In this document: one piece after another, positions 7,840 to 31,139 of the stretch
How the letters are laid out: each line of letters begins with the position of its first letter
Numbering within the stretch: position 1 is the first letter of the stretch
Assembly: GCA_017940245.1 (NCBI GenBank)
Contig: JAGAYZ010000056.1
Location: 1 to 32,397 of the forward strand
DNA: 32,397 bases
Reading direction: 5' to 3'
DNA from: Muribaculaceae bacterium
Lineage (GTDB): Bacteria; Bacteroidota; Bacteroidia; Bacteroidales; Muribaculaceae
Notes under the pieces: generated by a model
What the model saw: the letters and a program-made list of their open reading frames with translations, nothing else
The model's database searches: none
What the model was told of the DNA's origin: nothing
Made by a program: the position numbers and the translations under genes

Positions 7840-10800
7840 CTAAACCTTGAGGATAATGTTGATGATGGCGTTCACGTCCTCCACGTCCACGCGCCCGTCG
7901 CCCATCACGTCGGCAATGCCATCATAGTCAGTAACTGCCTTCTGTTTCAAGATGATGTTGATCACCGCGTTCACGTCCTCCACATCCACACGCCCGTCAC
8001 CGTTCACGTCGCCGTTGCCTGCAGCGGGCTTTTCGGTGGCGAACTTCACTTCATCGCCATAATAGGTCTTTCCGCCCGAGACGGCATAGGAGCGGAAACA
8101 GTAGGTGGCACCAGCCGTCAGACCTTCTACAGTGGTGCGCATGCGTTGTCCACTCGACTTTACCTTTGTGACCGAGCCTATGGGAGCAGCGGCCGGAGCA
8201 TTGTTGCCGCCCGTCGAGCGCCAGTATTCAAATCCCTGCTCGGTAATGTCGCTCGATCCCGGCAGTGCCACACCCTGCAGCGTGGCCTCGGTCTGCGTCA
8301 CCTCAGGATTCTTATAAGAATACAAGATTGGCTCATATTCCACCCCGGCGTCGGCTGTGATAAACGCGATCCAGTCGCCATAGTACATCGTTCCATTAGC
8401 ATCTTTCAGAAATGGGCGATACTTATAATAAACATTCTCGCTCATGTTTTTCAGCACGCCGGCCATCGTGCCATCGAATACCGGTGAGTAAACTTGGGCC
8501 GAAGGCAACTCTTCGGGGGCGTCATACCGTCGCCATTCAAAACCGCAACTGGTTTCTTCGTCGGCCAGGTTGGTGTTTGCGGCCAGCATGGGACTGGTGT
8601 TAGAAAGCATACGAGCGGCCTGAACCTCAAGAATCGGTTGGGGTGTAGTAATGGTTGTTGAGATTTCTTTATAAGTATTGATGCTGGTAATGCGGTACGT
8701 CACCGTGTGCGAAGAGCCTGGAATAAGCCCGGTAATGCTTCTGCCGTCCACCGGTGCGCCATCGAAGTATATTTCCAGTTTTTTTATAGATGCCGTCTCT
8801 TCGTCGTCAAATTGTGAAAGTGAGAAAACGGTGGGAGTAATGGTTTCAAAGTCCGTAACAGGTTTCGTCGGAAGATTAGAACCATCGCCAAAAAGGTCAA
8901 TGCCATGAGTGGTAACGTAAGGAGTAATCCAGCAACCACCAGGCGTTAATCCGATTATTTTGTCTATCGTCACTGTCAATTGTCCATCTCCGTTGTCCGT
9001 GACATTTCCCCTAATCTTTGTGTTACCGATTCTGATGCCGCAATCGGTAATGGCGGGAGATTCAAAATAATTGCAAGTGAAACTGATGCCCGTGGCAGTG
9101 GTCATCGTTGTTGACTGGCAAGTTGGCTCGGAAATGCCATAAATGGGATAGATATAAAGCAACAGATATGGCGAGATGTTCTTGTAGTGACCATATAAAT
9201 CGAAAGGAACAACGAACGGACAAGAACGTACAGGATATTGATCCAGTTTAGCATTGCACAGCATATATTTTAAGTTGGTGCAATTACCGAACGCCTCGCT
9301 ACCAATCTCTGTTACAGAACTTGGAATGGTGATGTTCTCTAGGCCAGTGCAACCCCAAAATGCCTCCTCTCCAATGGATGTGACGGAGTTGGGGATAGAT
9401 ATATTCATCAGGCCTTTGCAAACCCTGAAGGCATCTTCTGAGATGCTAACTGTTCCGTCCTTGATAGCGATACTCGTTCCTTCGGGCATGGTGCCTTTGT
9501 ATTGATATGCCACACGACCTGCATAGACCAGTCCATCTTGTTGATTATTGAACCATGGGGTACCATAAAATGCGCCTTGCCCAATGCGAGTGACAGAATT
9601 AGGAATGGTAATGCTACTTAGACTAGAACAACCAGAAAACGCATTGCCGCCAATGGATGTGACAGAATTAGGAATGGTGACACTCGACAGACTTTCGCAG
9701 CTGCCGAAAGCAAGGTAGCCAATCTCAGTGACGGTATTGGGGATGGTAATATTTGTCAGCCCTTTGCAGTAAGAGAAAGCATGATCTGAGATGCTAACAG
9801 TTCCATCCTTGATAGCGATACTCGTTCCTTCGGGCATGGTGCCTTTGTATTTATACGCCACACGGCCAGCATAGACTAGTCCGTCAGGTTGATTATTGAA
9901 CCATGGGGTTCCATAGAATGCGTCTGACCCGATATGGGTGACAGAATTAGGAATAGTAATGATACTTAGGCTGGAACAGCCATAAAACGCACTGCCTCCT
10001 ACTGTGGTAACGGAATTGGGGATGGTGATGCTATTTAAACTTGTACATTGATAAAACGCACTGCCTCCTATTGTGGTGACGGAATTGGGAATGGTGATAT
10101 TTGTCAGTGCACTACACTTCCTGAAAGCGCCGCTGCCAATTTTACGGACAGAATTAGGAATAATCACATTTGACAGTTTTTTTTGACCTTGCATAAAATC
10201 TGATGGTATATACTGCACAGAATTACCGATTGTTAAAACTTTTATTGGGCAATTTAAGAATGGGTGGCCAGATTGATATCCGTAGAAATCGTTACAGTTA
10301 ATGGCGTTCCACTCTATACTTGTCAGAGAATTGCAGCCACCAAACGCGCTTGTTCCAATGTCGGTTACAGACTCTGGAATGGTAATGCTGGTCAATTTTT
10401 TACAATTATAAAAAGCTTCACTTCCGATGATTTTTACCGAGTTGGGTATAGTTACACTTGTAAGATTTTCGCAGCCACAGAAAGTACCATAAAAAATGTC
10501 AGTAACTGAATTGGGTATAGTAATGCTCGTCAAGCTAGAACATCCCCAAAACGCATCACCACCAATGTAAGTTACAGATTTAGGAATTGTTACATTAGTA
10601 AGATTTTTGCTCCAAAAGAACGCCTCAACACCTATTTGGGTAACGGAGTAGGTTTTGCCGTTGTAGGTGACTCTCTCTGGAATAATTGCTTCGGTCAGAC
10701 CGGAATAATTGGATTCAGACTCATATTTTGTACAGGTAACCCTGACTGAGGTATTATTGTTGATGGAATATGCGAGGCCATCGACCATGAAATCGTAGGC

Positions 10801-10875
10801 GGTGGCGGTGTGGGTTAGCAACGTCATGAAGGCTATTGTCATTAATAGCCTGAGGGGGTAGGAAAAGTGTTTCAT
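7840..10875 (-). CDS. BspA-like LRR surface protein with dockerin tail
   Basis: A 1011-residue secreted protein. Signal peptide about 1-26 (cut near TATA-YDF). From about residue 60 to 560 it is built from LRR_5/BspA-type repeats with the core pattern A-F-x-x-C-x-x-L-x-x-I-x-I-P-N-S-V-T-x-I-G. Two segments carrying TPWFNNQ-DGLVYAGRVAY are near-identical and mark a recent internal duplication of about 125 residues. About 590-945 is a series of beta-sandwich domains, at least one fibronectin-III-like (GLTAGATYCFRSYAVSGGKTYYG). The last 57 or so residues hold two dockerin-type calcium loops (DVNGDGRVDVED and MGDGRVDVED) with INIILK helices. BspA-like proteins are usually surface adhesins in Bacteroidota; that role is inferred. 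A structured leader region lies upstream and a terminator follows. Confidence 0.9.
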   Translation of the reverse strand: MKHFSYPLRLLMTIAFMTLLTHTATAYDFMVDGLAYSINNNTSVRVTCTKYESESNYSGLTEAIIPERVTYNGKTYSVTQIGVEAFFWSKNLTNVTIPKSVTYIGGDAFWGCSSLTSITIPNSVTDIFYGTFCGCENLTSVTIPNSVKIIGSEAFYNCKKLTSITIPESVTDIGTSAFGGCNSLTSIEWNAINCNDFYGYQSGHPFLNCPIKVLTIGNSVQYIPSDFMQGQKKLSNVIIPNSVRKIGSGAFRKCSALTNITIPNSVTTIGGSAFYQCTSLNSITIPNSVTTVGGSAFYGCSSLSIITIPNSVTHIGSDAFYGTPWFNNQPDGLVYAGRVAYKYKGTMPEGTSIAIKDGTVSISDHAFSYCKGLTNITIPNTVTEIGYLAFGSCESLSSVTIPNSVTSIGGNAFSGCSSLSSITIPNSVTRIGQGAFYGTPWFNNQQDGLVYAGRVAYQYKGTMPEGTSIAIKDGTVSISEDAFRVCKGLMNISIPNSVTSIGEEAFWGCTGLENITIPSSVTEIGSEAFGNCTNLKYMLCNAKLDQYPVRSCPFVVPFDLYGHYKNISPYLLLYIYPIYGISEPTCQSTTMTTATGISFTCNYFESPAITDCGIRIGNTKIRGNVTDNGDGQLTVTIDKIIGLTPGGCWITPYVTTHGIDLFGDGSNLPTKPVTDFETITPTVFSLSQFDDEETASIKKLEIYFDGAPVDGRSITGLIPGSSHTVTYRITSINTYKEISTTITTPQPILEVQAARMLSNTSPMLAANTNLADEETSCGFEWRRYDAPEELPSAQVYSPVFDGTMAGVLKNMSENVYYKYRPFLKDANGTMYYGDWIAFITADAGVEYEPILYSYKNPEVTQTEATLQGVALPGSSDITEQGFEYWRSTGGNNAPAAAPIGSVTKVKSSGQRMRTTVEGLTAGATYCFRSYAVSGGKTYYGDEVKFATEKPAAGNGDVNGDGRVDVEDVNAVINIILKQKAVTDYDGIADVMGDGRVDVEDVNAIINIILKV

Positions 10876-10987
10876 CGTTACGCTTCGCTTTGTGGCCGGT
10901 GCGCTCTCCCCATCGCCGTGCCTGATTAATTAAGTAGTCGGGTTGAATGGATGTGAAAACGTGGAGAGTTGTTCTGATTTATTGTTC

Positions 10988-11227
10988 ACGAGGCATCGCC
11001 AAACGCCCAAACGAAAATAAACAGTATCCCCCCACGCGATGCCTATATACTGTTCTCGCCTAACGGGGGGATGATGTATAGGCACACATGAGCGTTTTTG
11101 GTACTGCTTATCCTTTTCGTTTTGAAAATTTTGGCGAATTCCGTGAACAGGATAAAGCAAAAACGCTTTCAGTTTGTAATATGTCCCTTCCAGTGGCGCT
11201 AGCACCACTGGAATTGCTGCAAATTTA
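10988..11227 (-). promoter_or_regulatory. Structured region upstream of the BspA-like gene
   Basis: This gap has an unusual density of complementary segments. On the plus strand: AGGCATCGC 10991-10999 with GCGATGCCT 11036-11044; ACAGTAT 11021-11027 with ATACTGT 11047-11053; ATCCCCCC 11026-11033 with GGGGGGAT 11065-11072; GCCTATA 11041-11047 with TATAGGC 11077-11083; GCGTTTTTG 11092-11100 with CAAAAACGC 11158-11166; TTCCAGTGG 11188-11196 with CCACTGGAA 11205-11213. The first four pairings cross or overlap one another, so they cannot all form together. A TAAATTTG -7-like box on the minus strand (11220-11227) would start a leader of about 340 nt just ahead of the last hairpin, but no -33 box is seen. 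It may be a regulatory leader, a small RNA or a recombination site. I recognise no known riboswitch. Confidence 0.5.
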
Positions 11228-11392
11228 TATAAAAATCCCGATATATAAGCCTAAAAAAGTAATTTTTCTTTAGAGGAAAACACTGTGTTTCGGATTGTCG
11301 AAAAGTGGCAGCCAATCCGGTGTATGGAAAATACACTGAACACCGAAAAAGTGAAGTTCCTCTGCGAGGCACCCCCAGCTATGCCGACGTGT
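11228..11392. other. Intergenic stretch between structured region and repeat A
   Basis: No gene seen. It contains a nested inverted repeat (CGGTGT ... ACACCG enclosing GTGTAT ... ATACAC, about 11,319-11,346) and then GAAGTTCCTCTGCGAGGCAC, the minus-strand form of the repeat A motif also found near 550 and 24,650. Confidence 0.5.
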
Positions 11393-11545
11393 GACCAAGC
11401 CGCACGCGTCTACGACTTGCAATGTTGGGTCGAGTGATGATGCCAATGGGCACCGCGAGCTGCACTTCGCGCAACACTCTCCTCATCATCTCCCCGAGCC
11501 CTTCGGGGTTGCTTGGTCTTTCTAACAAAGTCGGGTCTTCGACCC
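11393..11545 (-). repeat. Repeat family A, 153-nt conserved core (copy 2)
   Basis: Reverse complement of the core at 379-531, equal in length, nine differences by eye. It lies downstream of the NAGPA-like dockerin gene, in the same orientation relative to that gene as copy 1 has to the partial dockerin gene at the window start. The hairpins GGGTC-GAA-GACCC and CCCCGA-TCGGGG are both preserved. Confidence 0.8.
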
Positions 11546-11685
11546 ACCCGAGGCCCAATTCAAAATTAATAATTAATAATGAATAATTGCAGCTCCGGTC
11601 GCAGATTCGGCAAAGCCGGTTCGCGCAGCTCAATTCATAATTCATAATTCATCATTATGAATTCATCATTATGAATTATTCATTA
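11546..11685 (-). repeat. AT-rich block and one family A unit after a dockerin stop
   Basis: Read on the minus strand from the stop codon at 11,686: AT-rich AATAATGAAT repeats, then GAGCTGCGCGAACCGG and a GACCGGAGCTGCAATTATT unit, then more AT repeats leading to the family A core. This is the same order as 58-379 at the other end of the window, but with one unit instead of three. Confidence 0.75.
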
Positions 11686-14136
11686 TTAATTAGTTTTGAG
11701 GATAATGTTGATGATGGAGTTCACGTCCTCCACGTCCACGCGACCGTCGCCCGTCACGTCGGCAATGCCATCATAGTCAGTAAGTGCCTTCTGTTTCAAG
11801 ATGATGTTGATCACCGCGTTCACGTCCTCCACATCCACACGCCCGTCACCGTTCACGTCGGCCGTTGATGGCATCGCCACTTGATAGTGGCAGTAGAGTG
11901 GTCGCAGAGCAATGGAGCACTGACTGGCATCCAGTCCTTTCTCGGGCTCGAAGCGGATGCTGCGCAGCGTGAGCGGATAGGTGGAAACGGCATCAGCGCC
12001 GCCCATCTCGTCCATGTCGATGCAAATGCGATGCTCCGTACCGGCAGCAAAGGCACTATCGGGCGCAAAACTCTGGTTGTGTGTCTTGGTGAAGTTCATG
12101 TTGCGCACATCCACGCTCACACGCGTGATGGGCACATCGCTTGTGAATGAGAAAGCGACTGTGTCGGGCAGGCCGTAAAGGGTGAGTTGCTTGTCTAGCT
12201 CGATGTAGGCTGCTCGGCCCGACCCGTAGGTAAACGTGAGCGTTCCATCGGAGTTCAAAACGGCATTTTTGTGACCCGACGCTTTCACCGTCCAATCGGT
12301 CCACGGCTCATAGCGATAGGGCACGTCACTGATTTGTACCAGCACATCGGCCTCATCCACCAAGTCGCCTATGCGGCAGGTGAGATGGGCCTCTCCGTTT
12401 TTTATGCCGCGTAGCACGCCGCCGGTAATGGTGGCCACCTCGGGATGGTCGATGGTCCAGCTCAGCGCCCCGGGGTCGTAGCTATACTCTACCCCGTTGA
12501 CCATGGCTGTCACTTCCACTGGATAGTCGCGGCGGTCGATGATAATGGTCGGTTTCACCTTGATGGCAGGTTGCGCAGCCAGCAGCGTAACCTGCAAAGT
12601 GGCCGTCATCTCGCCCAGGGTGGCCGTCAGTGTGCCCGTGGTGGCAGCGGCTCCAGCCATGAACGACTCGCCTTGCGTCTTGCCTAGCGTGGCGTCGCAC
12701 GTGAGGGCGAATCCCCGCACATCCTTGCTCACCAGTTCACCACGTCGGTTATAGCCCAAGATTTTGGGTTGATAGGATGAGTAGACCGGCATCTTCACAT
12801 TGTAGTCATCGAAGGCGATGGAAGCCACCTCGTTGTCCTCTTCGCCCACGGCTTCCAGCATCCAGCCGGTGGCCACCGGTCGCGGAGTACCCTCGGTCGT
12901 GGTGTTGATGATGGCACCGTCGACCAGCATCTCGGCCGAGCCTCCGGCATCGAAGTTAACCACGTCCCACACCTGTGGACACAGGCTCTGCAATATCTGG
13001 CACATTTGCGCTGTGGTACAGCCCGCCGACGTGCCATAGCGTGGGCTGGTAGATTTGTCAATGACTATCATGTAGAGCTTGTCGCCGGTGGCATTGGTGC
13101 CATAGGCCGTGCGAGAATATACCATGGTGTTGTAAGTCTCGTCATAGTTGCGGCCCGTGAGTTGGCCACCATGCATCACCGGTGCGTTGCCCTCCACCAT
13201 GTTTTCAATGAGTGGATACTCGTGGTCGCGGTCGGCCTCATTAGTCATCCAGCTGGAATTTACTGTCACCACATCGCCCTCGGCCAGCGCGGCCATGGTC
13301 TCCTTGGTTTCCCCGGTGCAGGTGAGGCAGGCATCATAGTCGCCCAGCGTCAGACGGTCGGCTCCGTGCACGATTTTCTTCACCACCATGGCCATGTCTT
13401 TACCCACGCGCCAGCCTTCCCCCTCGGCAAAGTTCAGGTAATAGTTGTCGCTTTGGTTATCGCCTTTTTCATAAAACGACACCCAGTTATTTTCAAACTC
13501 GCGGGTGCGGCTATATGCAACATTCCACAATGCCATCTCACCGGCTACACAGCGGCGGTTCACGTTATAAAAATGCTGCGGGACACCTTCTTTCACCTTG
13601 GGCGAGGCCACCGTGCCATACCACCACCATCTACCGGCATACACCTTGCCATTGCGGTCTATGGCCACAGCTCCCGAGTGAGACGGGCCTCCATTCCACT
13701 GGTCACCACTGGTATTTGCGTTCACATAGGTGGTGTCGTTGCGCACCGCCGCGCCGTTGGGGGTACCCAGTGCATACACGTTCCACGGTTCGCCGCTGCC
13801 TCCCACTATCCAGAAGTTAGCGTTACAGGCAGCCACAGGCCGCTTGGTGGCTGTGCGGTTTCGCACCACAGCATTGGTGAGCAACTCGGTTTTGCCCACA
13901 GTGTTGTAGCCCAGCGTGGTCTCAACCCGATTATAGGGGTTGGTCAAATCGGTTTCCAGCACATACACATTGAGCGGGAAATCGGGCAAGCGCACGATGG
14001 TGTTCATGATACCGGGGCCCACCTGCCGGCGATGCACCGTGTCGGCCACATAACTCTTGCCATCAATCACTACATCGGCACCAGCCCATGCCGCGCAACA
14101 TGTTATTATCCACAATAAAACAACTATTTTCTTCAT
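11686..14136 (-). CDS. Secreted phosphodiester glycosidase (NAGPA-like) with dockerin tail
   Basis: An 816-residue protein. Signal peptide about 1-20. Residues about 100-430 fit the phosphodiester glycosidase / NAGPA domain: ACNANFW near 103-109, a central substrate segment, and the diagnostic NFDAGGSAEMLVDG (394-407, candidate acidic residue D396) followed by R-P-V-A near 419-422. In mammals the related uncovering enzyme removes GlcNAc from a sugar-phosphate diester; the bacterial substrate here is unknown. Residues about 440-635 look like two Ig-like domains (the second has EVATITGGVLRGIKNGEAHLTCRIG). A further beta-rich domain follows. The last 57 residues are the paired dockerin loops. 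The ATG at 14,136 is fixed by the promoter at 14,164-14,193. The tail DNA is nearly identical to that of the gene at 7,840. Confidence 0.88.
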   Translation of the reverse strand: MKKIVVLLWIITCCAAWAGADVVIDGKSYVADTVHRRQVGPGIMNTIVRLPDFPLNVYVLETDLTNPYNRVETTLGYNTVGKTELLTNAVVRNRTATKRPVAACNANFWIVGGSGEPWNVYALGTPNGAAVRNDTTYVNANTSGDQWNGGPSHSGAVAIDRNGKVYAGRWWWYGTVASPKVKEGVPQHFYNVNRRCVAGEMALWNVAYSRTREFENNWVSFYEKGDNQSDNYYLNFAEGEGWRVGKDMAMVVKKIVHGADRLTLGDYDACLTCTGETKETMAALAEGDVVTVNSSWMTNEADRDHEYPLIENMVEGNAPVMHGGQLTGRNYDETYNTMVYSRTAYGTNATGDKLYMIVIDKSTSPRYGTSAGCTTAQMCQILQSLCPQVWDVVNFDAGGSAEMLVDGAIINTTTEGTPRPVATGWMLEAVGEEDNEVASIAFDDYNVKMPVYSSYQPKILGYNRRGELVSKDVRGFALTCDATLGKTQGESFMAGAAATTGTLTATLGEMTATLQVTLLAAQPAIKVKPTIIIDRRDYPVEVTAMVNGVEYSYDPGALSWTIDHPEVATITGGVLRGIKNGEAHLTCRIGDLVDEADVLVQISDVPYRYEPWTDWTVKASGHKNAVLNSDGTLTFTYGSGRAAYIELDKQLTLYGLPDTVAFSFTSDVPITRVSVDVRNMNFTKTHNQSFAPDSAFAAGTEHRICIDMDEMGGADAVSTYPLTLRSIRFEPEKGLDASQCSIALRPLYCHYQVAMPSTADVNGDGRVDVEDVNAVINIILKQKALTDYDGIADVTGDGRVDVEDVNSIINIILKTN

Positions 14137-14296: not shown

Positions 14297-14347
14297 ATTT
14301 TCAGACCCAAAACGGATATTCTAGACGCTCTAGCCTGTCTAGAACCT

Positions 14348-14450
14348 CCCCCTCAGTTCTGGCGGATTGCAAATCCGCCAGAACTGAGGGGGGTGAGGCA
14401 CAACGCATCGCGCTACATTATTCATTATTAATTATTCATTCTCTCGCAGC
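14348..14450 (-). repeat. Repeat family B, short copy with 21-bp perfect hairpin
   Basis: CCCCCTCAGTTCTGGCGGATT (21 nt, given as 14,348-14,368) is perfectly complementary to 14,372-14,392 across a 3-nt loop. It is followed by TGAGGCACAACGCATCGCGCTACATT and AT-rich repeats that run up to the stop codon of the gene at 14,451. The same sequence is found after the dockerin stops at 18,166 and 21,679. As a hairpin just past a stop it could also act in 3' end formation. Confidence 0.75.
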
Positions 14451-17400
14451 CTACAGCTTCAAGATGATATTGATGATGGCGTTCACGTCGCTCACATCCA
14501 GCTTGCCATCGCCCGTCACGTCGGCATAGCCAGGATAGTCGACGGCAGTCTTGTTCTTTAAGATGATGTTGATCACGGCGTTCACATCGCTCACATCCAC
14601 CTTGCCGTCGCCCGTCACGTCGCCGGACTTCGTGTCAAGATCTACTCGATACTGATAGATGATCTGATCTTCGGGCAACTCGCTTGCAGCCACATGCAGA
14701 TAGGCAGAACCTCCAGGTGTCCAAACAGGGTCGCCGGTAGCTCTCCAACTGGTAATGGGAACTTCAGTCTCATACATCGTTTCCCATGCCATGTTCACCC
14801 AGCCTTCTTCCATATCGATGTAGCCCATTTGCGGGGCTGGCAGCAGCAAGTTGGCGCTGTAGTCACCGGCAGCGGTAGCAGTTGCCTGGTTCAATAACCA
14901 TATCTTTTCCTCGTAGTTGTTGCGCTGGGGTAGCTTAATCATGACACCGGTGTTGGCGGGTACTACCTTGCCGGGCATCTGCATGGTCAGTGCACGCTGG
15001 TCACCCTCGATATGATTCAGACCATTGACAATGTGTATAGTCGCCCCCTGGGGTAGCTCTACTGCCACATCGCACGAGAATGGTGTCACATCCTCGTTGG
15101 CCCACTCGTCCATCTTGATGAACGGGTGCAGCAGGTTTTTTACGTTAACGCTTGCTATCTCATAGGCGGCATGGAAGTAGTTGCGATTCAGCCTTATTAC
15201 AGGTTTTACGCTATAGCCATTAGTGATGGGCATATGCAGTCCATCTTCATATCCAAAACCGCTATACACATCGTAATAATCGTCCAGCAATGTGATGCTG
15301 ATATCGTTATTACCCATGTCAAAGGCATTAACTCCCACATAGGTTACCTGCTCGGGCAGAGTGACCTCGGTGAGTGCCGTCATTCCAAATGCATATCCCG
15401 CGATGTAAGTTACGCGGTCGAATGCGAACGAAGCAAGCGACGAGCAATTATAGAATGCCTGGTCTTGCACAATGAGCGACTGGGCGTCATATTCCACGTT
15501 TTGCAGGGCGCTACATCCATTGAAGGCAAGCTGTGGCACCGTGCTAATGCCGGCAGGGAGATGAATGCTCTTGAGGGTCGTGTTTCCGTCAAAGGTCGAT
15601 TGTGCAAGCCCTGTGAGGCCGGTGAAGTACTGGAACTCGTCAAATTCCTCGAGGTTTGCACCTTGCAACTTCCTCTTCAACATGCCGGTGCTGGTCACTG
15701 CGGCGGCCTCGGCGTAGCTCAGCTCGCCGTCACCGTCGGTATCGAAGGCGGCAACGACGGCAGCCTTGGTCATCTCGCTTTCAAACACGATGTAGGGGTC
15801 ACCCTCGTAGTCCACCCATTCATCATTTTCATTCGACTTGACAATCCATCCCTTGGCGGCAGCGGCGGTCACCTGCTCGCGCGTGAAGCGGTTGGTCTCG
15901 GCACCCATGGTGTCGTGGTTGTTCCACACACCGTAGATGCTGCCTGTGGCGGCTGGCAACGTGGGCAGGTTGGCAATCATTGCGTCCACGCCGTCGCCAT
16001 TCAGCCGGTTGTGGTGGCAGTAGATTTCCGCGACGTGAGGGTTATGACTCAGGTCGATGGTGGTGAGCTGCGTGCCCACAGCGGTCAGCGTCTGCATTCT
16101 GGGGAAGAACTCGATGCCGGTCAGATCGGCGATGTCGCTGCCGGTTACCGAGACAGTGGTCAGGGCCATCTCGCTTGCTTGCAGCCAGCCGTCCTGGCTG
16201 GTGTCGCACGTGGTGCTGCCCACCCACTGGCGGAAGCCCGCGTCGGGGAAGTTAGCTTCGTTGATCTCTATCGCATATTCAGTGAAAGACGATCTGTCAT
16301 CGATGTATGTCACTATCCAGTTTTTGGCCAGCGCGTCGCAGGCGTTGCGGGTGCTGAACACGTTGCCCTCGTTGTGCTCGGGGCGCTCGCTGTAGGGCTG
16401 CAGACTGCCATGTTGCCCGTTGTAGTTTGAGGGTGTCACCTGTGGCAGACTGGCTATGAGTGCGTCCATCGCTTCGGCACCAATCTGGTTGCCATGGAAA
16501 GTCAAGTAGCGCAGTTGCGTGTTGTGCGACAGGTCGAGGCCTGTCAGCCGGTTGAGCACACAATACAGCAAAATCAAATCGCCATTGTTTTGCACATTCA
16601 GCTCACTCAGTTGGTTGTTGTTGCAGTAGAGCGTAGTCAGTGCTGTGTTGTGGCTCACGTCCAGTGTAGTCAGGTTGCAGTCACTCAGGAAGAGTCGCTG
16701 CAACAGGGTGTTGTGACTCAGGTCGATGGTGGTCAGATTGTTGCCATCGGCTTCCAGCACGGTCAGGTGTGTGAAGTGCTCTATGCCCTTAAGCGTGGTG
16801 ATGTCGCTCACACTCACACCGATCTCACTGACGCTGTTAGCCTCGCCCGGTTGCAGCTTGGCATCGCCGTTGACGTCGATGTTCTGCAGCACGTAGGCGC
16901 GGAAGTTGGCGTCGGGGAAGTTCACCTCGTTGATGTCGATGGCGGGCGCGGGCGTGGTGTAGCCGGCCTTGATGAGCAGCTGGATGATGACATAGTCCCA
17001 CGCGTCGCACTTGCCATCGCCGTTCAGGTCCATCGTCGGGTCGTCGCACACCCAGTCGTTATAGACACCACTTCCTATCATAAAGTTGTATATCTTCCCT
17101 AAATCGCCATCGCCAACGTAGCCGTTGCCGTCCACATCACCCAGACCCGCATACTGCGTCACGTCCAGATTCATCGGGTTGGTGTTAATAAGATACCGGA
17201 CCACAAAAATATAATCTGCCACATCTAAGAAATTACTCGCGTCCAAGTCAGCCCACTTAGTTTCAAAATAGTCGCTGTTCTGACCATAAATTTCACTCAC
17301 CACGGCATTGGCGTCGTCGGGGTCGACCTTTCCGTCGCGGTTCACGTCGTAGGTGTATGCCTGGCCGCCGTCGGCGTAGGTCACCCGGATTTGATTGATA

Positions 17401-17944: not shown

Positions 17945-18165
17945 GCTCGTTTGGCTGGATTTGCAATCCGGCCGCCGGGTAATCTGCTGATTTGCAATCC
18001 ACAAGCCCGTGAGGGCTACCACTGCGCCGTGCCGCCGCGGGGATTTCAAATCCCCCCTTTAGGCTCTGGCGGATTGCAAATCCGCCAGAACTGAGGGGGG
18101 TGAGGCACGACGCATCGCGCCACATTATTCATTATTAATTATTCATTATAAATTAACTGTCTTGC
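17945..18165 (-). repeat. Repeat family B (copy 2)
   Basis: An element of about 200 nt: GGCTGGATTTGCAATCCGGCC, GGGTAA, GATTTGCAATCC, CGTGAGGGCTACC, GCGCCGTGCCGCCGCGGGGATT, TCTGGCGGATTGCAAATCCGCCAGA, GAGGGGGGTGAGGCAC, CATCGCGCCACATT, then AT-rich repeats up to the stop codon at 18,166. It contains several GGATTTGCAATCC-type palindromes. It fills the 256-nt gap between the genes at 17,909 and 18,166; I see no gene in it. Confidence 0.8.
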
Positions 18166-21100
18166 CTACAGCTTCAAGATAATATTGATGATGGCGTTCA
18201 CGTCGCTCACATCCACCTTGTCGTTGCCGTCCAGGTCGGCATTGCCGGGATAGTCGGCGACTGTCATGATCTTCAAGATGATGTTGACCACAGCGTTCAC
18301 GTCGCTCACATCCACCTTGTTGTCGCCCGTCACGTCGCCACGCACACCGCCCTGGCCACTGCCGATTTCCACCCAGTCAACACCTACTTTCTCCAAGGGA
18401 ATCCAGCCCTTGGCACGCGCGGCGGCTACCTGAGTGGCATCGATCTGGTTGTTCTCGGTCTTGCCATCGTAATTTGCGTTCAGCACGTAGAAGTGGCCCT
18501 CAGTGGGCGACTTGGTGCGCAGACTGCCAATCATCGCCGTCATATTGCTGCCGCTGATCTGATTGATGCTGATGTTCAGACTTGTCAGTGCGCTACAACC
18601 CTCCAGTGAGAGCTCAGCGAGCTGGTTGCCCCACGCATTAATCCAGCTCAAATTACTCAATCCTGCCACATTGAGCGAATTGATCCTATTGTCGTAGCAA
18701 TGCAAATCAGTCAGTGCCGTGCAGCCCGACACATCGAGCGAGGTGAGTGCGTTGCTGCCGCAGTTGAGTTCCGTCAGCGTTGAGGGCAGCAAGGACAGTT
18801 CTGTGAGCTGGTTGCCTTGGCATCTCAGCGTGGTGAGTGCGCCACAGCCGCCGATAGATAAAGTTGTGAGCGCGTTGGCGTTGCAGCTCAATGTGGTCAG
18901 CTCGGCGTTATAATACAGATTTAGTGTTTTCAGGCTTGGCTTGCCGGTGATGTCCAGCGAGGTGAACTTGTTGCTGTAGGCATACACTTCCTGGATGCTG
19001 CTTGGCAATGTAGGCAGCGACGTGAGCTGATTATTACTACAACCGAGGGTCACCAATGCGCTGGGCAATGCGGGCAGCGAGGTGAGCTGATTGTTACTAC
19101 AACCGAGGTAAACCAATGCACTTGGCAATGTGGGCAGCGAGCTGAGCCGGTTGTAGTTGCAGTTGAGTTCAGTCAGGCTGCTGGGCAGGGCTGGCAACAA
19201 CGTGAGTTGATTGCTCACGCAATTCAGATTAGTTAACCCGCCTGGTAATGTAGGTAAGGAAGTTAATTGGTTTGCCTGGCAGTTGAGCCGGGCAAGCGAG
19301 CCGGGCAGTGTACCGAGCGAGGTGAGCTGGTTGCCGAGGCAGTTCAATTCGATCAAGCTAGTGCAGCCCGATATGTCTAACGTTGTAAGGGCATCGTAAT
19401 AACAGTAGAGCTCAGTGAGTGCAGTATTATTTTTCACATTGAGCACTTTCAATTTCGATTTGTTAAATATATTTACGCTTGACAGCTTATTGTTATAAGC
19501 ATACACTTCCTCGATGCCGTTGGGCATTGTGGGCAGCGAGGTGAGCTGATTGCCGGAACACTTGAGAAACTTCAACGTGCTGGGCAGCGCTGGCAGCGAG
19601 GTGAGATTGTTGTTAGGGCAATTGAGTATCTTGAGTGAGCCGGGCAGTGTGCCGAGCGAGGTGAGCTGGTTGTTGCCACAATAGAGTTCCTGCAGTGAGG
19701 CGGGTAGAGTACCAAGCGAGGTGAGCTGATTGCTACTGCATTGCAAGTAGGTGAGTGCCGTGCAGCCCGAGATGTTAAGCGAGGTGAGCTGGTTGATTTC
19801 GCAGTTAAGATAGGTCAGAGCCGTGCAGCCCGAGACGTTGAGAGTAGTCAACGCATAGAGACAACAATCCAGCTCGGTGAGCAATGTGCAATCCTTCACA
19901 TCAAGCAGTTTCAGATTTCTATTCCAGCGAAAGGGCAGCGTGGTGAACTTGTTGCTGCCGGCATATATTTGCTGGATGCTTTCGGGCAATTCCGGCAGCG
20001 AGGTGAGTTGATTGCTGCTGCAATTCAGGTGGATCAGCCCGCTTGGCAATGTGGGCAGCGAAGTGAGCTGATTTTGGTAACAATTGAGCGAGGTCAGCCC
20101 AGTAGGCAGCGTGGGCAGCGACGACAGGCTGTTGTTGCCGCAATTCAGCGAGGTCAGCCCAGTAGGCAGCGTGGGCAGCGACGACAGGCTGTTGTTGCCG
20201 CAATTCAGCGAGGTCAGCCCGCTGGGCAGCGTGGGCAGCGACGACAGGCTGTTGCTGCTGCAATTCAGCGTCTTGAGGTAGGTGAGTTTTGCCACGCCGG
20301 TGAGGTTGCTGATGTTTTTGCCGCTCACAGTGAGCGACGTGAGGTTCTGCAACTCGGTCTTGGTCAAGTAGCCCTTGGGATAGAGCGCAAGCATGGCACT
20401 GCGGAAATTGGCATCGGGGAAGTTGGTGCTGTTGATAATCAACCCGTATTCCGAGCTGATGTAGATGTCGCCGCTGGTGATTTGGCTGCCCGATGAGTTG
20501 TAGACCGTGTTGTTGCTGTAATAGGCACCATTGGGTGCCAAGATTGTCGCTCCACCCGAGAACGACATTGACACGCCGCTCACACTGGCATTGGAGCCGT
20601 TGCCCTTGATGGTCGCGTCGGCGCCGCTCTGGAAGTAGGCGGCAAACGAGCTCAACGCCGACCGCTGGCCGGCGCTGGCGGTCACTTTCGCACCCTGGAA
20701 GTACAACTTGGTGGAGCTTGTGCCGTCGCCCTTGATGGCCTCGTAGGCACTTGAACCCGCTTGGAACTGCATCGTTCCGCTGCCTGTGAGGTAATAGCTG
20801 TAGCTCTTCAGGTTGGCACAAATGCGAGACGATGAGTAGAACGACACACTGCTGCCCGAGGCCGCATTGAGCGTCGTGGAGCGCTCCAGTTTCAGGGCAT
20901 TGTCGGTGGTCATAATACCACAGCTCCCCTCGAACACAATCTTCAGGCCATCGCATTTGCGGTTGTGGATGCCATAAGCGTCTGTACTGGTTCGCGTAAT
21001 CTGGATGTTATACAGCGTCAGCGTGTTGGTCGATGCGTTATACACGCCATAGCCGCTCTTGATGTCACCGCCGGTGATGCGGCTGGCGTTGTCGCTCTTT

Positions 21101-21267: not shown

Positions 21268-21457
21268 TTCGTTCGGCTGGATTTGCAATCCGGCCGCCGG
21301 GTAACCTGCGGATTTGAAATCCGCCAGCCCGTGAGGGCTACCGCTGCGCCGTGCCGCCGCGGGGATTACAAATCCCCCGTTAAGCCCTGGCGGATTGCAA
21401 ATCCGCCAGAACTGAGGGGGGTGAGCCACGACGCGTCGCGCTACATTATTCATTATT
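21268..21457 (-). repeat. Repeat family B (copy 3)
   Basis: It has the same order of motifs as copy 2 (GGATTTGCAATCCGG, GGGTAACCTGCGG, CGTGAGGGCTACC, GCCGCCGCGGGGATT, TGGCGGATTGCAAATCCGCCA, GAGGGGGGTGAG, CGTCGCGCTACATT). It is directly followed by copy 4 in the same orientation. Confidence 0.8.
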
Positions 21458-21678
21458 CGCTCGTTCGGCTGGATTTGTAATCCGGCCGCCGGGTAACCTG
21501 CGGATTTGCAATCCACAAGCCCGTGAGGGCTACCACTGCGCCGTGCCGGCGCGGGGATTACAAATCCCCCCCTTTAGGCCCTGGCGGATTGCAAATCCGC
21601 CAGAACCGATGGGGTGAGCCACGACGCATCGCGCCACATTATTAATTATTAATTATTCATTATTCATTCTCTCGCAGC
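21458..21678 (-). repeat. Repeat family B (copy 4), tandem to copy 3
   Basis: A second complete element with the same motif order as copy 3, ending in AT-rich repeats and CATTCTCTCGCAGCCTACAG at the stop codon of the gene at 21,679. The last 20 bases match those at the stop codon of the gene at 14,451. Confidence 0.8.
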
Positions 21679-24198
21679 CTACAGCTTGAGCGTGATGTTG
21701 ATGATGGCGTTCACGTCTTCCACATCCACCTTGCCGTCGTTGTTCAAGTCGGCATTGCCGGGATAGTCGGCAGCCGTCTTCAGCTTGAGCGTGATGTTGA
21801 TAGCCGCGTTCACATCTTCCACATCGCACTTGCCATCGCCGTTCACGTCGCCCTTCATGCCGCTACCATCGGGGACATCTACCCAGTCGTTACCCACCTT
21901 GTGCTGCGGCAGCCAGCGTTTGTCTTTCGCCTGCTTGACCTGCGCCGCAGTTATTTCATTGCCCTCCGGCTTGTCGCTGGAGTAGTTCTCACCATACACA
22001 TAGAATGTGCCAAGCTCATCCGACGACGGAATCGTGCGCATACTGCCGATGAGTGAGGACATGGCCGATTCTTTAATCTGGTTGGCGCGAATATTCAGGT
22101 AATTCAACGACTTGCATCCACTCACGTTAAGCGAGGTCAGGTTGTTGCTAAAGGTGTTGATCTTCTGCAATGACGACATTCCTTGCACGTTGAGCGAGGT
22201 CAACTCATTTCGATAGCATTGCAAGTCGCTCAGGCCGCTACAACCGTACACATTGAGCAAGGTCAACGCATTGTTATAGCAGTTCAGTGTGGTGAGCGCG
22301 GGATTGTAATCCACATTGAGCAACTTCAAGCTTGGCTTGCCGGTGATGCTGAGCGTGCCCGAAAGGTTGTTAAAGCGGGCATACACTTCCTGGATGCTAT
22401 TGGGCATTGTCGGCAGCGACGTAAGCTGGTTGTTATTACAATTCAGTATCTGCAAATTTGTAGGCAGAGTGCCAAGTGAGGTGAGCTTGTTATAGTAGCA
22501 ATAAAGGGTTTTCATCTCCGTGCATCCCGACACGTCGAGCGAAGTCAGGGCACCGCCGTTGCCGCAATCCAGCGCGGTGAGAGCAGTGTTATTTTTCACA
22601 TCGAGCTTCGTCAGGCTCGACATGCCGGAAATGGTCAATGTGCCCGCCAATTTGTTGTCATAAGCATAAATTTCTTGAATGCCGCTAGGCATTGAGGGCA
22701 GCGACGTGAGCTGATTTTGGTAACAATAGAGAGTTTTCAGCGTGCTGGGCAACGTGGGCAGCGAGGTAAGCTGGTTTTGGGCACAATGCAGTATCTGCAC
22801 ATTTGTAGGCAGTGTGCCTAACGACGTGAGCTGGTTGTTTGAACAGTCGATTTTGGTTATTGCCGAGCAGCCCGACACGTCGAGCGCGGTCAGCGCATTG
22901 TTGTAGCAGTTCAGCACGGTGAGCGCGGTGTTATTTTTAACATTGAGCGTCTTAAGACTCGGCTTGTTGATGATGCTCAATGAGCCCGACAGCATATTGT
23001 CATAAGCATACATTGCCTCGATGCTACTAGGCATTGCCGGCAGCGAAGTGATTTGGTTTTTACTACAAAAGAGTCTCTGAAGTCCGGAAGGCAGCACAGG
23101 CAGTGACGTAAGACGATTGGCATCGCAATCAAGATAAGTCAACCCGGTAGGCAGCGTGGGCAGCGATGACAGACTGTTACTGCGGCAATCCAGTGTCTTG
23201 AGGTAGGTGAGTTTCTCCACGCCCGTGAGGCTGCTGATACTCTTGTCGCTCACAGTGAGCGACGTGAGGTTCTGCAGCTCGCTCTGCGTGAGGTATTCCT
23301 TCGGGTAGCGTGCACGCATTGCGCTGCGGAAGTTGGCATCGGGGAAGTTGGCAGTGTTCAGTAGCAGAGCGTAATTATCACTGATGTAGATGTCACGGGC
23401 ATAGACTTTGGTGCCATTGAGCACGAAAGACTGGCTATCGCCGCTGTAGACAGCATCACACGGCGTGAGGATGGCGGTGTTGCCAAAGAATTTAGTTAGT
23501 TGATACAGCTCGCGGGCAATAGGATAGCTGCTGCTACCCGTGGCCTTGAAGGTGACATTGCTGCCGGCAAAGAAATAGGCTGCCAGGCCCAAAAGGCTGC
23601 CCTGGCTGCCCTTGACGGTGGCGGTGACGTTCGAGAACTTAACGGCATCGACGGTTGCCAAGTCACCGACGTTGGAATTCCAGGTTCCGTGCCCAGCTAT
23701 GGCGCCGTCTTTGTCTCCCGTGATGTTGAACGTGCCGGGACCTTTAATCCACACACAGGTGAAGTCGCGCACATAGATGGCACCGTCGCCGGTACTGGTC
23801 ATGTTCACCGTGGCGCCACTGGTGGCTACCAGCTGACATTCATCGGCATTGGGTGTTTCGTTTTGTGACCAGTTTCCACCACTCTGGAAGCGGATAACGC
23901 GGGCCTTGGTGGTGAGATTGCAAGTGCCCACAAACTTCACAATCAGGCCCTTGTAGCTGCGGTTGTGGATTGCATAGTCACCGCTGCCGGTGCGCGTGAT
24001 GGTTACGTTGGTCATTGTCAGCGTCTTGGTCGATGGACTGAAGGTGACCGTTCCACTCTTGATGTCGCCGCCCTTGATGTTGTTCATGTTGTCGGACGTG
24101 ACTTCTACACCCGCCACATTGATGTCGTACTTGGTGGCGGCTTGCGTTACTAACGCACTGAGCAATACGAGGATTGCCATGAGTAATGTCTTCTTCAT
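21679..24198 (-). CDS. LRR protein with dockerin tail, paralogue of the gene at 18,166
   Basis: An 839-residue secreted protein, signal peptide about 1-20. The N-terminal domain (YDINVAGVEVTSDNMNNIKGGDIKSG, then IHNRSYKGL) parallels that of the 18,166 product. The NFPDANFRSAMRARYPKEYLTQSEL cap, the LRR block (TSLGTLPTNLQILNC-type units), the closing segment (SLIGSMRT, then VGNDWVDVP) and the tail with two loops (DVNGDGKCDVED and NNDGKVDVED) follow in the same order. It has fewer LRR units, which accounts for most of the length difference. The tail helices read INITLK rather than INIILK. A run of nine C residues lies about 145 nt upstream. The likely role is surface binding, as for its paralogue. 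Confidence 0.88.
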   Translation of the reverse strand: MKKTLLMAILVLLSALVTQAATKYDINVAGVEVTSDNMNNIKGGDIKSGTVTFSPSTKTLTMTNVTITRTGSGDYAIHNRSYKGLIVKFVGTCNLTTKARVIRFQSGGNWSQNETPNADECQLVATSGATVNMTSTGDGAIYVRDFTCVWIKGPGTFNITGDKDGAIAGHGTWNSNVGDLATVDAVKFSNVTATVKGSQGSLLGLAAYFFAGSNVTFKATGSSSYPIARELYQLTKFFGNTAILTPCDAVYSGDSQSFVLNGTKVYARDIYISDNYALLLNTANFPDANFRSAMRARYPKEYLTQSELQNLTSLTVSDKSISSLTGVEKLTYLKTLDCRSNSLSSLPTLPTGLTYLDCDANRLTSLPVLPSGLQRLFCSKNQITSLPAMPSSIEAMYAYDNMLSGSLSIINKPSLKTLNVKNNTALTVLNCYNNALTALDVSGCSAITKIDCSNNQLTSLGTLPTNVQILHCAQNQLTSLPTLPSTLKTLYCYQNQLTSLPSMPSGIQEIYAYDNKLAGTLTISGMSSLTKLDVKNNTALTALDCGNGGALTSLDVSGCTEMKTLYCYYNKLTSLGTLPTNLQILNCNNNQLTSLPTMPNSIQEVYARFNNLSGTLSITGKPSLKLLNVDYNPALTTLNCYNNALTLLNVYGCSGLSDLQCYRNELTSLNVQGMSSLQKINTFSNNLTSLNVSGCKSLNYLNIRANQIKESAMSSLIGSMRTIPSSDELGTFYVYGENYSSDKPEGNEITAAQVKQAKDKRWLPQHKVGNDWVDVPDGSGMKGDVNGDGKCDVEDVNAAINITLKLKTAADYPGNADLNNDGKVDVEDVNAIINITLKL

Positions 24199-25119: not shown

Positions 25120-25596
25120 CTATTTGTTTTTATGAATCAAAGCCACGGCATAGGCAGCGATTCCTTCCTCATGCCCCACAAAGCCCAATCGCTCGGTGGT
25201 GGTGGACTTAATCGACACTTGACCGATGTCGCAATTCATGCATTGGGCCAGCTGTTCCTGCATGGCTGGAATGTGTGGATTGATCTTAGGGCGCTCGGCA
25301 CAGATAGTGATGTCGCAGTTGCCCAACGTGTAGCCATGCTCATCGAGCAAGCGACACACTTCGCGCAGCAATTTGCGACTGTCAATACCTTTATACTTAG
25401 GGTCGGTATCGGGAAAATGGTAACCGATGTCGCGCAGACAGGCAGCACCGAGCAGCGCATCGCACAGGGCATGGATGGCCACATCGGCATCACTGTGCCC
25501 CAGCAGACCCAGCGTGTGCGCTATTTTCACTCCGCCCAGCCACAATTCACGACCTTCAACTAGGCGATGAACATCGTAGCCAAACCCAATTCTCAT
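25120..25596 (-). CDS. ispF: 2-C-methyl-D-erythritol 2,4-cyclodiphosphate synthase
   Basis: A 158-residue enzyme of the non-mevalonate (MEP) isoprenoid pathway, cyclising CDP-ME 2-phosphate with release of CMP. It acts as a trimer in the cytoplasm. Metal ligands D8 and H10 (GYDVHR) and H42 (AIHALCDAL) are present, as are GLLGHSDADV and the C-terminal TTTERLGFVGHEEGIAAYA signature. The ATG overlaps the porV stop by 4 nt (ATGA), so translation is coupled to porV. Length is normal. Confidence 0.97.
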   Translation of the reverse strand: MRIGFGYDVHRLVEGRELWLGGVKIAHTLGLLGHSDADVAIHALCDALLGAACLRDIGYHFPDTDPKYKGIDSRKLLREVCRLLDEHGYTLGNCDITICAERPKINPHIPAMQEQLAQCMNCDIGQVSIKSTTTERLGFVGHEEGIAAYAVALIHKNK

Positions 25597-26765
25597 CGAC
25601 CGAACAGGCTCTTGATGCCGTCCATGTCGAACGACAGGGTGAAACGCAACGTCTGGTCGAGCGGGCTGTTCTGCTTGGTGGCTATCATGTAACCGGCATC
25701 AAGGCGTATCACACTCAGCGAGAAGCCGGCACCCAGACCGAAATATTGGCGGTTGCCGTTGTAGGCACTCTCGTAGTAGTAACCGCCACGCAGGAAGAAC
25801 TGCTGGTTATAAGCATACTCGGCACCGATTGAGCAGTTGATGCGTTTTGCGAAATCACTGCCAAACGAGGAGAAGATGCCGGAAATCGACGACTTGCTCT
25901 TCCAGTCTTCCTCGGCTTGACGGAATTCCTCTTCATATTCAGCACTGCCATCGCCAAAATCTTGAAGACGCGGCTTGGCTGGAACCAGCAGTTTGTTGGC
26001 ATCCACACCGATGGAAAGGTTGTGATAGTCGGCCAGCGGGAAAGTGAAAGTCGTACCTATCTTGAGGTTAGCAGGCAGGAATGCCGGGTTGTTTCCTCCA
26101 TCGTAGTTGATTTTAGAACCGATGTTGGATATATTGAAACCCAGCGACCATTGACACTCATTGCGGCCGATGATGGGATAGGTGGTGAAGTAGCCACTAA
26201 TATCGGCAGCGAAGGCCGAAGCCGAGGTCTTTCCATCGGGGTTATAAGTGTTGTAACCCAAATCGCTATGAATGTAGCGCAACGCCACACCCATTGAGAA
26301 TTTCTCCGACAGTTTGCGGGAATAAGCCACATCGGCGGCCAATTCGAATGGATGGATGCTGGCGATTGAAGCACCACTCTCGGTCTGGTTAATTTCGCCA
26401 TAAGAGAAGTAGCGCAGCGAGGCACTCACCGCCTGGTTGTCGCCACTGCCGATTTTGAAATAGCCGCTCAAGTTGGCCAGATAAATGTCATTGACAATCT
26501 TGCGCAACCACGGCGTGTAGGAAAGCGACACACCCGCACTGCTGTAGGCAAAGGCATATTTTGATGGGTTCCAGTATTGTGAGTTCACATCGGGGTCGGT
26601 TGCGGCACCCAGGTTGCCCATCGAGGCTCCGCGCGCATCGGCGGTGATGCCCAGCATGGCCACACCGGTATGGATGGGGTTAAAGTCCTGGTGGTCTTGA
26701 GCCACGGCCTTGCTTGCCAGCAATATGCTCGCAAGCGCTATAACGGTCTTGAATTGAACTTTCAT
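25593..26765 (-). CDS. porV: Type IX secretion system outer membrane protein PorV
   Basis: A 390-residue outer membrane beta barrel. After a signal peptide (about 1-22, SKAVA-QD) it shows the PorV pattern: LGITADARGASMGNLGAATDPDVNSQYWNPSKYAF, then SYTPWLRKIVNDIYLANLSGY. It ends in alternating beta strands with a terminal aromatic-rich strand. PorV binds the C-terminal signal of type IX cargo and carries it from the translocon to the attachment complex with the PorU sortase. The gene shows that the organism has at least part of a type IX system. It overlaps ispF. The upstream neighbour is a Bax-inhibitor family gene, not porU, and a terminator separates them. Confidence 0.92.
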   Translation of the reverse strand: MKVQFKTVIALASILLASKAVAQDHQDFNPIHTGVAMLGITADARGASMGNLGAATDPDVNSQYWNPSKYAFAYSSAGVSLSYTPWLRKIVNDIYLANLSGYFKIGSGDNQAVSASLRYFSYGEINQTESGASIASIHPFELAADVAYSRKLSEKFSMGVALRYIHSDLGYNTYNPDGKTSASAFAADISGYFTTYPIIGRNECQWSLGFNISNIGSKINYDGGNNPAFLPANLKIGTTFTFPLADYHNLSIGVDANKLLVPAKPRLQDFGDGSAEYEEEFRQAEEDWKSKSSISGIFSSFGSDFAKRINCSIGAEYAYNQQFFLRGGYYYESAYNGNRQYFGLGAGFSLSVIRLDAGYMIATKQNSPLDQTLRFTLSFDMDGIKSLFGR

Positions 26766-29627: not shown

Positions 29628-31139
29628 TTATTTGGTCTCGGGCTCCTGAGTGGCCAACACTATATTTATCAGCGCATTAACGTCGCCCACGTCAATCGTT
29701 CCATCACCTGTTAAATCGCCCTTCCACAACGCAGGCGCGATTTTTCCCAACACCATATTGATGAGCAGGTTCACATCGGCCACATCCACGATACCATCGA
29801 TGTTGACGTCGCCACGGGCCACCAGCGCGTCGATGTTGCGCGATAACCAAGGCATGCGCAGTTTAAACCACTGCACTCGCTTGTAGATGTTGCTGTAGGG
29901 CGAATAATACGTGCCCCAGCGCCGGTTGTTGAGTGTCATTGATGCGTACAAGCCTTTTCCTTGCGCCGATGTCTTCAGGCCATTCAGCGCATCGGCCATG
30001 CCATCACAGAGCACCTCTTTTATCGCATGCCAATGCTCAACATAAGCGGCCAAGAAAATTTTATTGGAGTTGCGGAAAAATGGGCTGTACTGATCTCGAT
30101 GCACACGAGCCCATCGAGCCGTGTCGGTTTCTTGAGAAGTAAAGTCCCACATGAGCGGCATCACCATTATAGAAGACGCACTACGATCATATTTCATGTA
30201 ATACATGTTCGAGCCCGCAGCATCATTTGTCGACAGGATGTCATGTCCTAGCGTCCACTTGGCATATGAATCAACGTCTATATAGTCCTCATAGTGCCCG
30301 TTAAACATCGATGCCTCATATTTCTGGAGCAAGTCGGTCATGAATGCCACGTCGCCGTCCGTGAGCTCTTCAGTCTCGGGATATTTGAATGTGTAGTGCA
30401 CAGGAAATCCTAAACATGATTCAATATAGGTATCGACCTTCCACCAATATGGATCCAGTTCAAACAAGAAACCGTTTTTGGATATATTAATTCTGCAGTT
30501 TGTGTTACGTCTCACCGACTCCACTAGCATATACACACCGCAATACTCATTGTTGATAACGACATTCACATAACGATATCCGGGAGTCCAGGGCATGCCC
30601 AGCAACCGATTCAGTTCAAATCCTTGCGCCACAAATTGCTCATCGTCGCGAATCAGCAGCCAGTGCTTGTCACGAAAACTAGGATTGTTGCGCTTGAGCA
30701 AATCGGCCTTGTCTTGGAGTGTAATCTTATATGGCTTTTTGGCATAAAATGCACTGGAATTACCTCGCAAGCGCAAAGTCATGCCCTTTGCATCCTGCAC
30801 ATAGTCGCCCGAATCATAAATCACGCTGTTGCCATCCAAAATCATTAGCCTGCCGGGCACATCGGTGGCATTCACTATCGACAGTCCCCACGCTCCTTCG
30901 GGAGCATACACATAGTCGGCTGTAGGCCACACTCCCTGCTCCGTATTGACATCCAGTACCCACAAACCGGTCGCTGTAATGCTAGCAAAAGTAATCGAGT
31001 CTTTACCCTCACCCATTCCCACCATGCGATCGTGTGCGTCAACTTGTGACACTGTCATCGCAAACAGCAAACACATTGCCAAACTCCGAGTAATTCTTTT
31101 ATTTATCTTGCCTGACTTCAGATGTAACATAAACTGCAT
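29628..31139 (-). CDS. Secreted CotH kinase family protein with dockerin tail
   Basis: A 503-residue protein. Signal peptide about 1-35 (VSQVDA-HD). The CotH domain spans about 120-430: LRGNSS (124-129), KKPYKITL, KHWLLIRDDE, ELNRLLGMPWTPGYRYVNVVINNEYCGVYMLVESV, and a late WDF motif. CotH proteins have an atypical protein-kinase fold; Bacillus CotH phosphorylates spore-coat proteins, and many bacterial members are secreted with carbohydrate-related modules. The tail (about 440-497) holds two dockerin loops, DVNIDGIVDVAD and DLTGDGTIDVGD. It is more diverged from the other tails and is followed by a short charged end (ATQEPETK). The ATG at 31,139 is chosen; an ATG at 31,130 is also possible, because the promoter at 31,151-31,182 lies very close. 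No repeat A or B follows it. Confidence 0.87.
   Translation of the reverse strand: MQFMLHLKSGKINKRITRSLAMCLLFAMTVSQVDAHDRMVGMGEGKDSITFASITATGLWVLDVNTEQGVWPTADYVYAPEGAWGLSIVNATDVPGRLMILDGNSVIYDSGDYVQDAKGMTLRLRGNSSAFYAKKPYKITLQDKADLLKRNNPSFRDKHWLLIRDDEQFVAQGFELNRLLGMPWTPGYRYVNVVINNEYCGVYMLVESVRRNTNCRINISKNGFLFELDPYWWKVDTYIESCLGFPVHYTFKYPETEELTDGDVAFMTDLLQKYEASMFNGHYEDYIDVDSYAKWTLGHDILSTNDAAGSNMYYMKYDRSASSIMVMPLMWDFTSQETDTARWARVHRDQYSPFFRNSNKIFLAAYVEHWHAIKEVLCDGMADALNGLKTSAQGKGLYASMTLNNRRWGTYYSPYSNIYKRVQWFKLRMPWLSRNIDALVARGDVNIDGIVDVADVNLLINMVLGKIAPALWKGDLTGDGTIDVGDVNALINIVLATQEPETK

Follow-up and report, generated by a model that had tools for sequence, protein, structure and literature searches.

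Dockerins and gene conversion are each well known already. The closest described systems are the clostridial cellulosomes, the Gram-positive bacterium Ruminococcus flavefaciens and Porphyromonas gingivalis, a member of the Bacteroidales. Type I dockerins of clostridial cellulosomes (1ohz, 2vn5) are C-terminal modules with two calcium-loop repeats and internal symmetry, and dockerin sequences serve to infer protein co-assembly and enzyme evolution. In the portions available to us of the reports on R. flavefaciens FD-1, a very large dockerin set (225 copies), recognition classes and internal symmetry in some dockerins are described together with several scaffoldins, and domain shuffling is cited for enzyme architecture, not for copying of dockerin DNA (PMC2721979; PMC5301203). 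For surface proteins of P. gingivalis, the available part of one report describes rearranged gene modules and proposes gene conversion at adhesin and fimbrial loci compared across strains (PMC5266723). A rumen Bacteroidetes genome was found to have no cohesins or dockerins, as in other Bacteroidetes genomes, according to the accessible part of that study (PMC5831590). We found no paper on gene conversion or concerted evolution of dockerins in the open-access literature.

The locus analysed here shares with the clostridial type I dockerins the two calcium-loop repeats, the C-terminal position, the internal symmetry and, as a predicted fold, the structure (TM 0.65–0.82). It differs in belonging to a Bacteroidales genome with a single weak cohesin match, in carrying its dockerins on LRR, NAGPA and CotH bodies and not on cellulases, and in the apparent copying of tail DNA within the genome. 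As in R. flavefaciens the dockerin set is very large, and as in P. gingivalis gene conversion is proposed, although here it would act among more than 100 copies of one small C-terminal module per genome. We propose that ectopic homologous recombination has probably, and recently, overwritten the dockerin module of one gene with that of its neighbour, as one instance of a more general process. Should the tag recombine independently of the body, tail and body trees will disagree and partner specificity could shift without any change in the enzyme; such genomes would also offer a natural system of more than 100 short homologous tracts that would allow ectopic conversion, the length of its tracts and its dependence on distance to be measured.

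Dockerin-ended genes of the window

The window (the whole stretch of 32,397 nucleotides that was analysed) is contig C39 of a Muribaculaceae draft genome, G000 (2.70 Mb, 104 contigs, 80% complete), and profile matches place six dockerin-ended genes on its minus strand. The first, at 7840–10875, encodes a BspA-type leucine-rich-repeat (LRR) protein of 1011 aa (LRR_5, E 6.4e-118) with a C-terminal dockerin (Dockerin_1, residues 955–1009), the tail occupying 7846–8010 in codon frame. The second, at 11686–14136, encodes a NAGPA (phosphodiester glycosidase) domain protein (E 1.4e-14) whose 816 aa are counted from an internal ATG and which again has a C-terminal dockerin (residues 759–813); its tail, placed by DNA comparison, lies at 11695–11859. 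The four other tails, also on the minus strand, end an LRR gene at 14451 (tail 14454–14624), LRR-like genes at 18166 (18169–18339) and 21679 (21682–21852) and a CotH-domain gene at 29628 (29631–29813). Their identities to the first tail are 74, 73, 77 and 62%, respectively, so that three of them are about equally distant from it and not "progressively more different", as the preliminary description had them; the tails at 18169 and 14454 are 87% identical to each other.

By profile, the tails of the BspA-like and NAGPA-like genes are type I dockerins (PF00404), scoring 31.8 and 32.3 bits against a curated cut-off of 22.9. A structure model built from an alignment of 31 tails (mean pLDDT 95.2) predicts a dockerin fold with two calcium-loop repeats: ranks 1–26 of its 29 PDB matches are dockerins or cohesin–dockerin complexes (none reaching E 0.001), and a sequence search of solved structures returned solely weak matches to EF-hand calcium-binding proteins. 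Por_Secre_tail (PF18962), the type IX secretion sorting domain, was absent from the four window proteins scanned, including both paired genes; the whole genome has three matches to it, none on the window contig.

A palindromic intergenic repeat with the core TCTGGCGGATTGCAAATCCGCCAGA recurs near the LRR genes (14345–14440, 18052–18147, 21373–21468 and 21566–21661; copies 68–92% identical to the first), and near these genes similarity reaches past the dockerin tails. At 25593–26765 lies what we take, by reading and with no family search, to be a PorV/PorQ-like gene adjoining ispF; both genes are also near NAGPA at 8 of 11 loci of named relatives.

Two unrelated genes with a near-identical tail

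Ungapped comparison of 7847–8011 with 11696–11860 gave 161 identical bases of 165, in agreement with the preliminary description, which had counted four differences and no gap. The mismatches fall solely at window positions 7869, 7894, 7904 and 7935 and leave a longest identical stretch of 76 bases. The codon frame (7846–8010 and 11695–11859) adds one further difference, a synonymous one, giving three non-synonymous and two synonymous differences, the latter per ~37 synonymous sites. Outside either module edge the ungapped identity is immediately at chance level, except that 7 bases at the upstream edge match again once shifted by one base. The 600 bases upstream of the two tails showed no similarity by blastn or blastp (E 0.01), the two bodies gave no blastp match up to E 10, and no common flank was found; the earlier claim that the proteins are unrelated upstream and that identity ends abruptly is thus borne out.

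The 104 full tails of G000 form 5356 pairs, and by identity this one comes second (0.953 over a codon alignment of 171 positions; mean of all pairs 0.665, 99.9th percentile 0.920), a rank that rules out chance similarity. After its partner, the next-best own-genome match to the first tail is 79% identical, among the 40 matches scored. Duplication of a segment comprising gene and tail is also ruled out, since bodies and flanks have no similarity. What is observed is high identity limited to a homologous segment of otherwise unrelated genes, a pattern expected of ectopic gene conversion. Because near-identity holds at synonymous and non-synonymous sites alike and is restricted to the module, non-vertical copying of the tail is supported; the preliminary description had invoked either gene conversion or cassette capture, and conversion between pre-existing tails is the form we favour. 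The only pair to rank higher, C16:173 and C16:3874 (98.9% identical), again joins neighbours with unrelated bodies and flanks, one a BspA-type LRR protein and the other a different protein. The observation is therefore real and has a sibling.

Tails within and between genomes

All 37 genomes of the genus searched for dockerins (G000–G036) carry at least 29 modules (29 to 89 scored, among the matches listed). Of 24 genomes of the order that belong to other families, 23 have 0–2 and one has 38. Among named genomes, the closest counterparts of the NAGPA gene are in assemblies from gut and rumen that are labelled Muribaculaceae, Prevotellaceae or Bacteroidales. For comparison with G000 we used G013, whose NAGPA gene is the closest (77%). 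From 141 Dockerin_1 matches in G000, 139 were carried forward, 130 had DNA and 106 full C-terminal tails were used (104 under a stricter length); the 122 matches of G013 yielded 116 that were carried forward and retrieved and 99 that were used. Here and in the species pair treated below, the rows left out were partial, internal or overlapping matches, plus some that were not retrieved.

Tail identity exceeded 85% in 65 of 10416 within-genome pairs vs 0 of 10494 pairs between G000 and G013. Twenty of these 65 join unrelated bodies, 44 related bodies and one is unclear; the 44 are old tandem paralogs with alike tails. Five unrelated-body pairs of G013 are more than 90% identical. Of 205 tails, 177 had their nearest counterpart within their own genome (~102 expected; permutation maximum 132 in 2000). 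Among pairs with unrelated bodies, tails less than 10 kb apart averaged 0.710 identity (n=43) vs 0.663 for distant ones (n=5182) in G000, a value reached by none of 5000 resamples, and 0.681 (n=44) vs 0.660 (n=4340) in G013 (p 0.016), both tests treating pairs as independent. Neighbouring tails are therefore more alike despite unrelated bodies, clearly in G000 and weakly in G013. In ten related-body pairs picked for their alike tails, the tail synonymous difference was below that of the body in all ten.

For 36 body orthologs of G000 and G013 (at least 65% identity), the ortholog tail was the best match in 3 cases, and in 6 in the reverse direction (median rank 12 and 20.5). Some vertical signal remains, amino-acid identity being 0.693 for ortholog tails vs 0.618 for non-orthologs. 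G000 and G013 are distant at synonymous sites, and the low rank of ortholog tails could therefore partly reflect age or fast divergence. The observation that the best own tail beats the ortholog (36/36 and 35/36) was set aside in favour of the ranks and the between-genome comparison, as it compares a maximum with a single value and is biased.

Among tails with unrelated bodies, exact runs of at least 50 bases were shared by 3 pairs within G000 (n=5225) and 2 within G013 (n=4384), and by none of 9647 pairs between the genomes; runs of at least 35 bases are also found between genomes (13/9647), so that the runs no more than suggest partial mosaics. In the G000 pair C16:32278 and C95:32675, differences lie mainly in the first 13 codons and the remaining tail is nearly identical, with ~190 bases of 3' flank common at 88%. 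Some exchanges therefore include the flank.

Overwriting of an existing tail or capture of a first one

Each of the 24 distinct relatives in which the 3' end of the NAGPA gene was read has a dockerin after the NAGPA body (five named loci that repeat genome loci counted once; left out were L012, L016 and L032–L034, cut by a contig end, L021, in another frame, and L011). The BspA-like body is present in 7 of 61 genus genomes searched, G000 included, and a dockerin directly follows it in 6 of 6 relatives, although these bodies are only 30–59% identical. Since body homologues of both genes carry dockerins, each gene most likely already bore a tail, one of which was then replaced; in relatives both loci carry the segment, though none of them represents the direct ancestral state. 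The nearest relative's NAGPA tail is ~75% identical to both window tails and the tail of the closest BspA-body relative ~71% identical to the BspA tail. An attempt to polarise the copy event through relatives failed, their tails being about equally far from both window tails.

The proposed sequence of events would thus begin with two genes that most likely both bore dockerins. Direct copies of the 165-base module, 3.85 kb apart on the same strand, are plausible substrates for homologous recombination at ectopic positions; such gene conversion, without crossover, would overwrite one tail with that of the neighbour. The conversion tract would be confined to the module, as nothing homologous lies beyond it, and identity would stop at the module edges because the tract ends with the homology. 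A non-crossover overwrite would explain the near-identity, the abrupt edges, the kept gene order and the proximity effect; we infer the recombination and non-crossover steps, as well as conversion over other copying routes, from these patterns. More generally, dockerin modules would behave partly as a recombining family, with bodies that descend vertically.

The most serious alternative is cassette capture, whereby one gene without a dockerin would have gained its neighbour's tail by duplication. The rarity of the BspA-like body means that this gene may be a newcomer, the module edges are sharp, and C16:32278 and C95:32675, which share most of the tail together with the flank, look like a moved segment. 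The paired genes of the window have no such common flank, however, and the dockerin behind every BspA-like body found in relatives speaks against a gene that lacked one, so that we regard capture as unlikely. Overwriting between existing tails is better supported than capture of a first tail.

Tail turnover in a close species pair

Tails were also compared between two close species, G035 (148 matches, 144 carried forward, 113 retrieved, 99 used) and G036 (146, 131, 105 and 96). Seventy-six reciprocal best pairs were obtained, 52 of them with bodies of at least 90% amino-acid identity over at least 80 residues. Over all 52 pairs, dS was 0.158 in the body, 0.186 in the 60 codons preceding the tail and 0.341 in the tail, and dN 0.018, 0.024 and 0.102, respectively. 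DNA identity fell below 0.84 in 20 of 52 tails, in none of the 52 windows immediately preceding them and in two of 432 equally long body windows, which include those 52; the cut was picked after viewing the values, dS over all 52 pairs being the unselected comparison. The 20 diverged tails, selected for low identity, had a dS of 0.71 vs 0.16 before the tail; the other 32 had 0.17 vs 0.20. Divergence starts at the module edge. In the 80 bases past the stop, identity was 0.743 by the diverged tails vs 0.858 by the others, so that some of the turnover seems to include the flank; for 11 of the 20 diverged tails, conservation was higher in this flank than in the tail itself.

The ortholog remained the best tail in 67 of 72 pairs, an own-genome tail beating it in 5 of 72 in either direction, and was still the best match for 14 of the 20 diverged tails. 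For 17 of these 20, no own tail among those compared exceeded 0.72 identity, so that a donor of the entire tail is not apparent. A test for multi-codon stretches shared with own tails gave 110 vs a null of 60 but was non-specific, as random tail pairs likewise exceed their null (ratio 1.97 and 1.29). Altogether, tails in this species pair mostly follow vertical descent; a few have been homogenised with a neighbouring tail, and more than a third of the well-conserved proteins show patchy turnover of the tail. The preliminary description had held that exchange would be contradicted by tails as diverged at synonymous sites as their bodies, or by tail–body pairs conserved across distant species without exchange. 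Tails and bodies differ in their synonymous divergence, and tail–body pairs are not simply conserved; yet in this close pair most tails do follow their bodies.

The patchy turnover may be driven by short-tract conversion or by hypermutation. That local hypermutation, for instance by a diversity-generating retroelement, accounts for the diverged tails is nevertheless improbable in our view. Changes in many of these tails are scattered rather than gathered in one block and include synonymous ones, and this, like the want of a visible donor, is what such a process would leave. The differences are, however, not centred on adenine (CT 280, AG 198, AT 118, CG 98, AC 92, GT 82), and for 1053 of 1182 changed codons another own tail has the same codon at the corresponding position, which is weak evidence. 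Nor can hypermutation make two tails alike, and hence it cannot explain the near-identical pair itself, for which overwriting by recombination remains our reading.

Assembly and selection

An assembly artefact, with distinct tails collapsed or joined during short-read assembly, is very unlikely. The draft is fragmented and incomplete and the copies have the same orientation; yet both lie within one 32 kb contig, collapse would yield exact identity and not spread differences, and the similar unrelated-body pairs above 90% recur in the separate assembly of G013. Selection for one binding partner, by convergence or purifying selection, would keep tails alike without DNA exchange and could draw on the constrained loop position described below, but is barely credible: the paired tails are nearly identical at synonymous sites as well (own-genome tail pairs share on average only 0.58 of their same-amino-acid codons), and the raised synonymous divergence of the G035/G036 tails speaks against selection on the protein alone.

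Loop residues and cohesins

In 82 of 99 tails the two repeats have the same residue at loop position 11, numbered from the loop's first aspartate, where 30.9 such tails would be expected, a sign of functional constraint; in three other genomes the agreement likewise lies above permutation. Within one tail the DNA of the two repeats is 0.758 identical vs 0.711 across different tails. According to the part of one report available to us, cohesin-recognition residues are found at dockerin positions 11 and 12 and symmetrical dockerins are linked to dual binding (PMC5301203). Position 11 as counted here presumably corresponds to one of these recognition positions, and the tails, judged by their sequences, would function as cohesin-binding tags. 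We tentatively suggest, as a possibility rather less likely than not, that the genus keeps a pool of more than 100 interchangeable, recombining dockerin tags per genome that turn over faster than their carrier proteins; secreted proteins would then be re-addressed between cohesin partners, the matched position-11 residue (E, S, A or T) acting as the address class.

Of 61 genus genomes, 33 gave cohesin matches, with 1 to 6 per genome and 28 over the cut-off. The one match found in G000 (80% complete) is weak, at 26.6 bits, and lies in a protein at 1285–3372 of L039 (C23; cohesin-like domain at C23:17705–18094). By eye this protein also holds repeats of LRR type, a central region resembling a dockerin and an end similar to the sorting tail of type IX secretion; the gene after it likewise contains a dockerin-like stretch. 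In a relative (G078, C7; L119 58–1866), a protein of 602 residues has four tandem cohesin matches in one frame (cohesin-like domains at C7:125716–127275) and, by eye, a dockerin-like C-terminus, and thus looks like a candidate scaffoldin in a Bacteroidales genome.
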